Below, piece after piece: positions 1,801 to 19,908 of a stretch of DNA of 22,341 nucleotides (its first letter is position 1; each line of letters starts with the position of its first letter). Source of the stretch: a virus. Below the pieces are notes generated by a model. That model had not been told where the DNA came from and did no database searches. It saw nothing but the letters and a program-made list of their open reading frames with translations. Both the position numbers and the translations under genes were made by a program. The stretch is taken from the IMG/VR virus record IMGVR_UViG_3300033571_015650, positions 1 to 22,341 of that record; one strand, written 5' to 3'.

Positions 1801-1820
1801 GTTTGGTTATGACTATCCCT

Positions 1821-2473: not shown

Positions 2474-2481
2474 CAAACATA
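2474..2481 (-). promoter_or_regulatory. Bacteroidota-type -7 box TATGTTTG for the minus-strand operon
   Basis: On the minus strand TATGTTTG matches TAnnTTTG and is followed by TTAT and then ATG (2469). I see no good TTG (-33) element at the usual 17-23 nt. The 4-nt box-to-ATG distance equals that at two plus-strand genes, which raises my confidence. It predicts a leaderless or nearly leaderless mRNA. Confidence 0.5.
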
Positions 2482-2527: not shown

Positions 2528-2559
2528 TTGCTTTTGTGAATCATTCTACCATATATTTG
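2528..2559 (+). promoter_or_regulatory. Bacteroidota-type promoter (TTG-N21-TATATTTG)
   Basis: TTG at 2528-2530, 21-nt spacer, TATATTTG at 2552-2559, then TGCA and ATG at 2564. This fits the TTG/TAnnTTTG promoter known from Bacteroides and Flavobacterium. Transcription would start at or next to the start codon. The 2470-2563 gap thus holds two divergent promoters and little else. Confidence 0.6.
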
Positions 2560-2563
2560 TGCA

Positions 2564-2881
2564 ATGAATGAAGATAAGACTAAGCACATCATTGAGATGA
2601 TGTTACTTGGACAGCTAATGGCTGATAGGATTGATGTCGCCGGGGCAAAGGGTTGGCTAATGCAAAAGGTCAAGATGCAGAGCAAGGCGCTTGTGTCTAC
2701 CCTCGAAAAGGACATGAAGATTATGTACATGGCTACCTACAAAAACGAAGAGGCTTCAGCGGCGTATGAGGACGCACTGTCTGCTGTCGAATCCGTTTTT
2801 GATGAGTTAAGGTCAATCCCTATTGAAAGTTGGGAAAGCTTGGCAGACGTAATTAAGTCCGTAAAAAACAAAGGGGAATGA
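2564..2881 (+). CDS. Small predicted helical protein, unknown function
   Basis: A 105-aa protein I do not recognise. It looks almost wholly alpha-helical: MNEDKTKHIIEMMLLGQLM, AKGWLMQKVKMQSKALVSTL, EEASAAYEDALSAVESVFDEL, with a basic C-terminus (VIKSVKNKGE). No signal peptide or transmembrane segment. It begins 4 nt behind a TATATTTG box, so its mRNA is probably leaderless, and its stop overlaps the next start as ATGA, which suggests translational coupling to the downstream glycosyltransferase. As the first gene of the unit that includes two sugar transferases and a DnaA-like protein it may be an early gene, but nothing in the sequence tells its role. Confidence 0.75.
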   Translation: MNEDKTKHIIEMMLLGQLMADRIDVAGAKGWLMQKVKMQSKALVSTLEKDMKIMYMATYKNEEASAAYEDALSAVESVFDELRSIPIESWESLADVIKSVKNKGE

Positions 2882-3525
2882 ATAGTGTCCTGATAGTAGT
2901 CTTCACTTACAATCGGCCCAGTATGCTTCGTGATACATTGATCCACTTGTCCAAATACGGACACAAAATATTGGTCATTGACGACGGAAGTACATACGAT
3001 AAGTCTGTGGTTCTTAATGGTTTAGATGAAAATATAGAGTACATAAGGACTCCCCACAGGGGCAAGGAGCGTTGGTGGATGAACTGGAACGATGCCCTTA
3101 GAGTTTGTAGGGAGAAAAACCCACGCCTATTCATATTTATGGCGGATGACTTTCAGAACCTTGATCTTTTGAAGGCCGTTCACGTTTATAGTGGAATAAA
3201 AGAGGTAGCCACCTTGAACTTGATAAATGATGGCCGTGTTCAGTGGGGTTGTTCCCCGCGTCAGGTTTCAGACGATTTAATACTCCTTGGCTTTAATGAC
3301 TGCGGCTTTATTTGTAACAAGGCGGTTCTCAGGTTTTTGAAGTGGAGAATCAATCCAGTAAAAACAAATAATGAATCGTCAGGTGTTGGAAGGCAGTTGA
3401 CTAACAGGCTTCGTAAGTTGGGAGTCAATATGTATTGCCCTGTAAAGAGTTTTGCATATCACGGAGACCATCCATCCATCATGCACCCTGAGTTGAGAAA
3501 ATCAGAACCAATAATAAGCAAATGA
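2878..3525 (+). CDS. Family 2-like (GT-A) glycosyltransferase
   Basis: A 215-aa predicted nucleotide-sugar glycosyltransferase. The N-terminus shows the GT-A signature: VLIVVFTYNRPSMLRDTL (residues ~4-21), then LVIDDGSTYD (about 30-39) with the donor-binding acidic pair, and FMADDFQNLDLL (about 75-87) as the metal-binding DxD-like motif. The C-terminal part has YHGDHPSIMHPE, an acceptor-side block I associate with phage-encoded transferases. It is short for family 2 but holds the whole fold core, and has no transmembrane segment. It overlaps both neighbours by 4 nt (ATGA), so it is translated together with the GT9-like gene. Acceptor is unknown: virion protein, host surface glycan or modified DNA base are all possible. 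Family firm, substrate open. Confidence 0.85.
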   Translation: MNSVLIVVFTYNRPSMLRDTLIHLSKYGHKILVIDDGSTYDKSVVLNGLDENIEYIRTPHRGKERWWMNWNDALRVCREKNPRLFIFMADDFQNLDLLKAVHVYSGIKEVATLNLINDGRVQWGCSPRQVSDDLILLGFNDCGFICNKAVLRFLKWRINPVKTNNESSGVGRQLTNRLRKLGVNMYCPVKSFAYHGDHPSIMHPELRKSEPIISK

Positions 3526-4945: not shown

Positions 4946-4947
4946 AC

Positions 4948-4978
4948 TTGCAACGATAAACAAAATTACATATATTTG
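4948..4978 (+). promoter_or_regulatory. Bacteroidota-type promoter (TTG-N20-TATATTTG)
   Basis: TTG at 4948-4950, a 20-nt spacer and TATATTTG at 4971-4978, followed by CCAT and ATG 4983. It matches the Bacteroidota housekeeping promoter and decides the start of the SSB-like gene. It would drive the overlapping operon to 9183. Confidence 0.65.
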
Positions 4979-4982
4979 CCAT

Positions 4983-5363
4983 ATGAATAACAAGTACAAG
5001 GGCGTAGTAATTGAGATCGGCCCAGAAAACAGATTCTCAGACAAGTTCGTGTCAAAGCAAATCGTTCTTGAGGATAAGTCAAGCAAGTACCCTAAGAATG
5101 CGGCCTTTGAGTTTGTTAATGCAGCCATTGAGAAGATTGATGGCCTCCGTATTGGAGACGAAATAGATGTTACGTTTGAGCCAACATCAAGGAAGTCAAA
5201 GGACGGAAGGTGGTTCACAAGTAATAGGGCTTGGGAAATCGGGATCATGACGAGCTACTCTCCGAACAAGATGGAGGTTAAAAGCAATCCTCAGCCAAGT
5301 GCCCCGGTAAGCAAGCCAAAGGTTGAAGACACTCCATACGAAGATACTGAGCTTCCTTTCTGA
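4983..5363 (+). CDS. DUF3127-type OB-fold, SSB-like protein
   Basis: A 126-aa predicted single-stranded-DNA-binding-like protein. Residues 5-90 follow the DUF3127 pattern known from Bacteroidota and their phages: YKGVVIEIGPENRFSDKF, QIVLEDKSSKYPKNAAFEF, LRIGDEIDVTFEPTSRKS and WFTSNRAWEIG. A disordered Pro/Ser linker (about 97-115) leads to an acidic end, EDTELPF, which closely imitates the SSB tail (DDDIPF) that recruits replication partners. The frame runs back to an ATG at 4911 inside the upstream gene, but the promoter box at 4971 and the domain start argue for ATG 4983. It heads an operon of overlapping genes and fits with the primase-helicase and DnaA-like proteins. SSB function is inferred from fold and tail. 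Confidence 0.8.
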   Translation: MNNKYKGVVIEIGPENRFSDKFVSKQIVLEDKSSKYPKNAAFEFVNAAIEKIDGLRIGDEIDVTFEPTSRKSKDGRWFTSNRAWEIGIMTSYSPNKMEVKSNPQPSAPVSKPKVEDTPYEDTELPF

Positions 5364-9198: not shown

Positions 9199-9206
9199 TA
9201 TATTTG
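9199..9206 (+). promoter_or_regulatory. Bacteroidota-type -7 box TATATTTG before the packaging genes
   Basis: TATATTTG lies 30 nt before ATG 9237, giving a leader of about 25 nt that ends in A-rich sequence (cgcaaa). No good TTG at the expected distance; only a weak TTC about 20 nt upstream. It would separate the replication-side operon from the packaging genes. Confidence 0.45.
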
Positions 9207-18147: not shown

Positions 18148-18168
18148 TAATAAAGGAAACCCGAAACT

Positions 18169-18198
18169 AAAAAGAGGGGTCTATTGACCTCTTTTTTT
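18169..18198 (+). terminator. Intrinsic terminator after the head genes
   Basis: Stem arms 18169-18181 (aaaaagaggggtc) and 18186-18198 (gacctcttttttt), loop tatt. The stem is continuous with two G-U pairs and runs into the T-tract. It lies 22 nt behind the stop at 18147. Confidence 0.8.
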
Positions 18199-18205
18199 AT
18201 TTTTG
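18198..18205 (+). promoter_or_regulatory. Possible -7 box TATTTTTG at the end of the terminator
   Basis: TATTTTTG matches TAnnTTTG and overlaps the last T of the terminator tract. There is no TTG at the right distance upstream (nearest at 18184, spacer 11). If real, it gives a leader of about 40 nt for the 552-aa gene. Low confidence, since T-tracts produce this match easily. Confidence 0.3.
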
Positions 18206-18249
18206 ACACTAAACAAAGATGGCTAAATCCTAAGCAAAATAATACTAAA

Positions 18250-19908
18250 ATGGCTACGTTTACAGCTCAAGATATTGATATTACAGTCACATTTGACGCG
18301 GACGGAAACACCGTAAAGGTCAAGGATAATGTGGATTACTCCACGTTTGATGATATGCCAACAGCATTTATTGTTGATACTGGTGTATTTTTAGATCCGT
18401 TTAGCAATGTTGTTTTTTCAAAGCCATTGGTTAATAATCCTCTTATTGATATCTCAAATGGAGACGATGAGAGTATTGCTTACAATTTGCCTTTAACAAC
18501 ATCTTCTACAATACTCCCCGGCCCATATGGCCTAACATTTACAGTAAACGTGAATGTTGCATTGACTAATCTTGTTGTAGATCAAATCACAACAACAACT
18601 CAAGAGGCTGAGATTCAAGGTGATTACTACTACCTTCAGCCGGGTGATATTGTTGTTTTTTCAGGTTCAAGCAATGCGGGAAACAACGGGTCTAAGACTG
18701 TCGTGTCTGCTAGTTATGACCCTCTTCTTGATGTTACTACAATTGTTTTTGCAGCCGCTTCATTTACAAACAATGAAAACGGAACAAGTGGAACTGTCGC
18801 AGCAATTACAATTGAAAGAACCTATGTGAAAACAGCGTCTTACACCTATACTGATTGTACGAAGGTTACGCCAAAAATCACTATAACCTCATCATGTACC
18901 GATGAGAATATTACTATTGCAGACACCACGGTAACAACTGGTCAGACTGTTGTTTCAAGAAACATGAGTCTAACGTATCCTGAAGGACTTGTTGATCCTG
19001 TTCCTGCTGTAAATCCAGTAACAACATCTCAGTCATCTTACACAATTGGCGAGCTTGCGAATGGCACATATACTGGCATTTTGGAGTTGGATATGAGTTA
19101 TGTTCAGAATGACGATCTTGTTGTGACATATTCAGTCAGAAAGGTTGATGAGTCCACCGTTGTTTGCAGTCTTAATCTATGTTGTGTAGAGCAGTGTCTT
19201 GATTCTTTATACGATAAGTATTCAAGTTGTTCAGGATCGGTAAACAATGCATACGCCACGAAAGTTATTCAATCAAACTTCTTAGTTAATCAATTCAACA
19301 TTCAAAAAGATTGTGGAGAGGTTGACAAGGCTGCGGCTACTCTTGCTGAGTTAAAAGATTTACTTGGCACTGATTGCTCATGTTGCGGAGACGGAGCTGA
19401 GGAGGTAAGTTGGGTTAGCTCGGCTATTTCTGGGCTTGATGTTCCTCCCGGAACGATGAGGGTTCTTTACTTCAATGATACTCGTATTACAGGAAGTGGG
19501 ACAGCAGTAAATAGCTTTACCAACAATCCGGGATTCACTATCCCAGCAGGATTGTTTCAGGTTGGTGATATGCTTGAGATTGAAATTCGCGCAGAATATC
19601 TCGACACTCTTGCTGAAATTAAAATCAGAAACACTACATCTACAGCTACTTACGCAGAGGACTCTCTTGCATTGAATGATTTTGGCACAGAAGTATTGAG
19701 GATTGTTCGAGTTGATGAAAGTACAGTAAGTGTGCTACGTGAATTTCAAATATTGAATGCGACTCCGGGTGTCAGTGTAGTTCAAAGTGCAACGAACTAC
19801 TCATACAATGATTCAACACTTAATGTAATTAATTGGGTTCCAGACACCCCGGCTGATGTTATGTACTATTGGATTAAGGTAATTCACATTACTGACTACG
19901 CAGGATGA
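18250..19908 (+). CDS. Cys-rich, beta-rich structural protein (fibre or decoration candidate)
   Basis: A 552-aa, Thr/Ser/Asn- and beta-rich protein of virion type. N-terminal part (1-200) looks like repeated beta domains (GDYYYLQPGDIVVFSGSS; TTIVFAAASFTNNENGTSG). The middle has 11 cysteines at about 203, 216, 306, 311, 312, 316, 327, 355, 376, 378 and 379, the core being LCCVEQCLD and TDCSCCG; this could bind metal or form disulfides. The C-terminal 160 residues are beta-rich, as in receptor-binding or decoration domains. I chose ATG 18250: the longer frame starting TTG 18184 lies in the terminator, whereas ATG 18250 follows aataatactaaa. The stop overlaps the next start as ATGA. I do not know its exact role; head fibre or tail/neck protein fits the context. 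Confidence 0.65.
   Translation: MATFTAQDIDITVTFDADGNTVKVKDNVDYSTFDDMPTAFIVDTGVFLDPFSNVVFSKPLVNNPLIDISNGDDESIAYNLPLTTSSTILPGPYGLTFTVNVNVALTNLVVDQITTTTQEAEIQGDYYYLQPGDIVVFSGSSNAGNNGSKTVVSASYDPLLDVTTIVFAAASFTNNENGTSGTVAAITIERTYVKTASYTYTDCTKVTPKITITSSCTDENITIADTTVTTGQTVVSRNMSLTYPEGLVDPVPAVNPVTTSQSSYTIGELANGTYTGILELDMSYVQNDDLVVTYSVRKVDESTVVCSLNLCCVEQCLDSLYDKYSSCSGSVNNAYATKVIQSNFLVNQFNIQKDCGEVDKAAATLAELKDLLGTDCSCCGDGAEEVSWVSSAISGLDVPPGTMRVLYFNDTRITGSGTAVNSFTNNPGFTIPAGLFQVGDMLEIEIRAEYLDTLAEIKIRNTTSTATYAEDSLALNDFGTEVLRIVRVDESTVSVLREFQILNATPGVSVVQSATNYSYNDSTLNVINWVPDTPADVMYYWIKVIHITDYAG

Follow-up and report, generated by a model that had tools for sequence, protein, structure and literature searches.

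A −7 box four nucleotides ahead of the start codon predicts leaderless mRNAs in a phage most likely infecting Bacteroidota

Two plus-strand genes of the phage sequence analysed here, starting at positions 2564 and 4983, are probably transcribed with the primary sigma factor of the host from the A of their own ATG and are predicted to yield leaderless mRNAs; a minus-strand gene starting at 2469 perhaps does so weakly. Under this reading, phage transcription would rely on the host's primary sigma factor, with the −7 box TATATTTG of the 2564 and 4983 genes ending 5 nt before the A of the ATG. RNA polymerase starting on this A would produce mRNAs without a 5′ leader, which would be translated through direct recognition of their 5′-terminal AUG. 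The geometry is the same at the 2469 gene, whose box TATGTTTG departs from the consensus; a weak leaderless promoter may lie there. We infer promoter activity, start position and leaderless translation from the sequences themselves and from an excess of the arrangement in phages and hosts that is specific to its spacing.

The window, i.e. the whole stretch of DNA analysed, is a complete IMG/VR record of 22,341 bases, and its predicted terminase, portal and structural protein identify it as a fragment of a tailed phage. Named phages with a related terminase infect almost exclusively Flavobacterium, Cellulophaga and other Bacteroidota, and the DUF3127 family, to which the product of the 4983 gene is assigned, is typical of Bacteroidota; the host is most likely one of the Bacteroidota. 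A scan of bacterial genomes with the terminase recovered neither a prophage nor a host, and DNA and protein searches of INPHARED with the region of the candidate sites gave no match. The sole close contig, IMGVR_UViG_3300005805_000317, is 99% identical to the window and so cannot serve to show conservation of the sites. Its alignment to the window is lost only across 18297–19904, within a large ORF (18184–19908) that appears to be a hypervariable gene, possibly encoding a tail or receptor-binding protein. The same contig carries ~38 additional bases at window positions 1802–1808, between a terminator-like hairpin and a helix-turn-helix gene.

The first-pass annotation had singled out a minus-strand ATG lying 4 nt behind a TAnnTTTG box, which we confirmed (TATGTTTG at 2481–2474, TTAT, ATG at 2469–2467) together with the identical spacing it had reported at 2552 and 4971 (TATATTTG-TGCA-ATG 2564 and TATATTTG-CCAT-ATG 4983). 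The comparison with shuffled sequence that it had suggested came out in its favour: the window contains three copies of TAnnTTTG-N4-ATG (minus strand 2481–2467, plus strand 2552–2566 and 4971–4985), against a mean of 0.31 and a maximum of 2 in 100 dinucleotide shuffles, none of which reached three. The box by itself is not enriched (19 observed, 16.5 expected); the enrichment in the window lies in the spacing of box to ATG. Anchored on the 28 ATG gene starts, five TAnnTTTG boxes lie within 100 nt upstream, three of them at gap 4 (P = 1.2e-5, or P = 9.6e-5 when gaps 4 and 5 are both counted) and the remaining two at gaps of 30 and 44. Under the stricter TAHHTTTG-N4-ATG only the two plus-strand sites are left, with 0.19 expected and at least two found in 1.3% of Markov shuffles. 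A scoring matrix derived from 62 N4 sites in other phages, which partly rewards AT-richness, ranks the sites at 4983, 2469 and 2564 first, second and fourth among all window positions (scores of 20.1, 15.6 and 15.1, respectively), and by this matrix all three have the AT-rich spacer and overall profile of a Bacteroidota primary-sigma promoter. Promoters of the sigma-70 type were rejected as candidates, their number in the window being below chance expectation.

Coordinates of the candidate promoters, start codons and genes in the window (Table 1) place the two plus-strand sites ahead of quite different genes. Both TATATTTG boxes, at 2552 and 4971, fit the TAHHTTTG form of the −7 box. In the 4983 protein, residue 6 is aligned with position 3 of Pfam DUF3127 and with position 4 of PHROG 4932. 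The start codon at 4983 is backed by homology, the one start of the three that is; the 2469 and 2564 proteins had no relatives by which their start codons could be checked. Relatives of all three proteins in IMG/VR were limited to the 99% identical contig and one 20-residue match. The 4983 gene has its own candidate promoter behind a DnaA-like gene, and a family-2 glycosyltransferase gene lies at 2878–3525 in the replication-side gene run. Taken singly, the 2564 gene and the 4983 gene are each likely to be leaderless. The TATTTTTG box listed for contrast stands directly behind a terminator-like hairpin with T-run (AGAGGGGTCTATTGACCTCTTTTTTT; window 18160–18210).

Table 1. Candidate promoter elements, start codons and associated features of the window, with strand and remarks.
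Feature	Positions	Strand	Basis or remark
Candidate −7 box TATGTTTG	2474–2481	−	Departs from the refined consensus TAHHTTTG by a G at −9
ATG start codon, predicted +1 if box 2474–2481 is used	2467–2469	−	Published box-to-start distances
137-codon ORF with N-terminal hydrophobic stretch, no family match; operon gene 1	2056–2469	−	
73-aa helix-turn-helix (HTH_3) regulator; minus-strand operon gene 2	1821–2042	−	
Terminator-like hairpin behind minus-strand operon	1766–1794	−	4 in window vs 3.7 expected, weak alone
Rival −7 box TAAGTGTG; 14-nt leader for 2469 gene if used	2488–2495	−	Score 15.5 vs 15.6
−7 box TATATTTG, 4 nt before ATG 2564	2552–2559	+	
TTG of possible −33 element, within ACTTGC 2526–2531	2528–2530	+	Sequence; 21 nt before box
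105-codon ORF, predicted leaderless, no family match; gene 1 of plus-strand run	2564–2881	+	
−7 box TATATTTG, 4 nt before ATG 4983; top-scoring site of window	4971–4978	+	
TTG of possible −33 element, within ACTTGC 4946–4951	4948–4950	+	Sequence; 20 nt before box
126-codon single-strand DNA-binding protein (DUF3127 / PHROG 4932), predicted leaderless	4983–5363	+	Homology
TATATTTG box, gap of 30 nt to ATG 9237; contrasting candidate for an ordinary promoter with leader	9199–9206	+	
TATTTTTG box, gap of 44 nt to ATG 18250; contrasting candidate for a promoter with leader	18198–18205	+	

Published transcription maps bear on where such boxes would direct the start. The first-pass annotation had placed the transcription start of Bacteroidota only a few bases behind the −7 box, in agreement with a distance of 4–5 nt in F. 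johnsoniae (PMC6847099) and a box at −12 to −5 in F. psychrophilum, where 5.5% of mapped mRNAs are leaderless (PMC9723704); in B. thetaiotaomicron, leaders under 10 nt make up 3.7% (PMC7366714). The −33 TTTG/TTG element is weak in published maps. Given a start 4–5 nt behind the box, box-N4-ATG predicts transcription from the A of the ATG.

As a class, the box-N4-ATG layout is accompanied in Bacteroidota phages and their hosts by an excess of gene starts exactly at gap 4. We scanned IMG/VR contigs, which were without taxonomic labels, for TATATTTG with an ATG 0 to 20 nt behind it, so that no particular gap was preset. Where a −33 TTTG was also present, 14 ORFs of at least 40 codons began at gap 4, compared with 0, 1 and 0 at gaps 8, 9 and 10, and counts climbed again from gap 11; with an ATGAAA start, gap 4 held 18 and its neighbours held counts of 2 and 6. 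Across the independent IMG/VR samples of TATATTTG boxes, the gene starts at gap 4 numbered 18 and 16, with 2–6 at its neighbours. Pooling loci for TAHHTTTG, with seed sites removed, yielded 32 starts at gap 4 vs ~9 at other gaps, with 14 and 11 at gaps 5 and 6, 4 to 5 at gaps 7–11 and ~10 beyond, a two-humped distribution corresponding to no leader or a leader from ~8 nt. The scarcity of gene starts at gaps 7–11 looks as though leaders of ~3–7 nt were avoided. In the N4 class and in leadered promoters alike, the base right behind the box is T or C, G being avoided, and the next one is A, and the A found at position 5 in 61% of leadered promoters is, in the N4 class, the A of the ATG, which supports one start position for both classes.

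Use of the arrangement varies among phages with annotation: of seven Bacteroidota-type phages surveyed over stretches of up to 50 kb, two have N4 sites, at annotated starts 19187 and 4450 of Flavobacterium phage elemoE and 39733 of phage ctfjg026, and the stretches surveyed of phi46:3, B40-8, FCL-2, crAss001 and Panino have none. The elemo phages were rejected as a test of conservation, being 98–100% alike. Several other phages (loci L071, L087, L131, L136, L577, L009, L011 and L045) carry leaderless-type promoters directly behind terminator-like hairpins, the T-run of the hairpin doubling as the AT-rich spacer. Fusion to a terminator was seen in 5 of 62 leaderless promoters vs 12 of 388 leadered ones, a suggestive tie between the two features.

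The gap-4 excess extends to host genomes, where it is specific to Bacteroidota. Across 28 Bacteroidota genomes, TAHHTTTG preceded ATG at N4 1806 times vs 1109 at N10, compared with 476 vs 460 in 13 other prokaryotes (odds ratio 1.57, Fisher P = 2e-9); the totals were summed by hand from per-genome counts, and the genomes had been chosen for containing a promoter-like pattern, at one site each, too few to account for the difference. Gap 10 was used as the control as it has the same codon phase as gap 4; the reversed pattern and gap 9 proved poor controls because codon phase matters.

The minus-strand site named by the first-pass annotation is the weakest of the three, and its interpretation suits the two plus-strand companion sites better than the named one: the leaderless start at box-N4-ATG is supported as a general claim and less so at the site for which it was made, which has G at −9 and belongs to a box variant that has no gap-4 excess in phages. 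TATGTTTG fits only the older, looser TAnnTTTG, and mapped Flavobacterium promoters hardly ever have G at −9 (PMC6847099). On the minus strand, no TTG lies at a −33-type distance before the 2474–2481 box. Among IMG/VR phages, TATGTTTG had 0 of 42 and 0 of ~35 ORFs at gap 4 vs 18 of 68 for TATATTTG (Fisher P = 9e-5 for 0/42 vs 18/68), and all G-bearing boxes pooled gave 3 at gap 4 vs a mean of ~2.7, one of the three being the named site itself in the near-identical contig. In host genomes, TATGTTTG was counted 63 times at N4 vs 55 at N10 and TATATTTG 225 vs 150; these ratios do not differ significantly (P = 0.24), so that the host data alone do not separate the two boxes. We lean slightly towards the named box being a chance match, with the 2469 gene transcribed from another promoter such as TAAGTGTG (2495–2488), which scores almost the same and would leave a leader of ~14 nt. 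Against this, TAAGTGTG also has G at −9 and in addition a G at −7, where T is invariant; a box is unlikely to fall precisely at a gene start by chance (~1% for all genes of the window, by rough estimate); and the named site keeps second place in the window when its G is penalised, a score to which the AT-rich spacer contributes. A leaderless 2469 gene is consequently a tentative prediction, somewhat doubtful as it stands. The 2469 and 2564 genes are divergent with 94 bp between them, and this region resembles a putative regulatory switch region; its repeats contained no convincing operator.

For the sites as a set, the boxes could be real promoters from which the start drifts 1–3 nt upstream, leaving leaders of 1–3 nt instead of none. 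The somewhat raised counts at gaps 5 and 6 (14 and 11 vs ~9) and the F. johnsoniae starts at 4 or 5 nt behind the box (PMC6847099) are in keeping with such drift, which we nevertheless consider unlikely, as the peak is at gap 4 and positions 4 and 5 behind the box in the N4 class are mostly T then A, a usual start dinucleotide; leaders of 1–3 nt, if true, would functionally still be leaderless. That all three sites arose by chance, where a TA-rich word happens to meet ATG in AT-rich intergenic gaps, is very improbable: it agrees with the lack of over-representation of the box alone in the window, and is opposed by the spacing-specific excess in the window, in independent phage samples and in Bacteroidota but not other genomes, which also upholds the earlier claim that the recurrence was not due to chance.

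The box-N4-ATG rule would make leaderless genes of uncultured phages readable from sequence alone, yields concrete and inexpensive predictions for RNA 5′-end mapping and helps to fix start codons: KNV12_gp21 of elemoE (L590, NC_055854.1) is annotated from 46422, and TATCTTTG-N4-ATG points to a start at 46440. Bacteroidota ribosomes work without Shine-Dalgarno pairing, which makes translation start in their phages of interest. A broader speculation, which we think unlikely, is that fusion of promoter and start codon as box-N4-ATG is common among Bacteroidota phages and bypasses the blocked Shine-Dalgarno interaction of their hosts; transcripts would then fall into two classes, those lacking a leader and those with one of at least ~8 nt, and very short leaders would be avoided. 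Leaderless mRNA is already known in Bacteroidota, in a few percent of genes, and is here extended by prediction to a phage; no description of leaderless mRNAs from phages of Bacteroidota was found in the literature searched. The finding adds to a known promoter and leaderless-mRNA arrangement of Bacteroidota and opens no new one.

The mRNA of lambda cI is leaderless, and, as there, a possibly leaderless operon of the window encodes a helix-turn-helix regulator and borders a divergent promoter region; unlike in lambda, the regulator is the second gene of the operon and not the predicted leaderless one, and no operators were found. The survey of TA-led (leaderless) genes (PMC3160421), in which such genes are predicted by a box ~12 bp upstream of the start, likewise describes a promoter box at fixed distance to the start codon, although the box there is the E. 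coli-like TANNNT, not TAnnTTTG, and many Bacteroidetes genes were put in an ‘atypical’ class. Leaderless mRNAs of Bacteroidota hosts (PMC9723704, PMC7366714) were mapped by RNA sequencing whereas the phage case is a prediction; the start codon lies at or adjoining the transcription start in the hosts and is predicted to do so in the phage. Compared with primary-sigma (sigma-ABfr / sigma-A) promoters of F. johnsoniae (PMC6847099) and F. psychrophilum (PMC9723704), the promoters proposed here belong to a phage, are read from its sequence only and include a minus-strand box with G at −9; they share with them the TAHHTTTG box, a predicted start 4–5 nt behind it and the AT-rich spacer, and the two plus-strand sites have a possible TTG-like −33 element.
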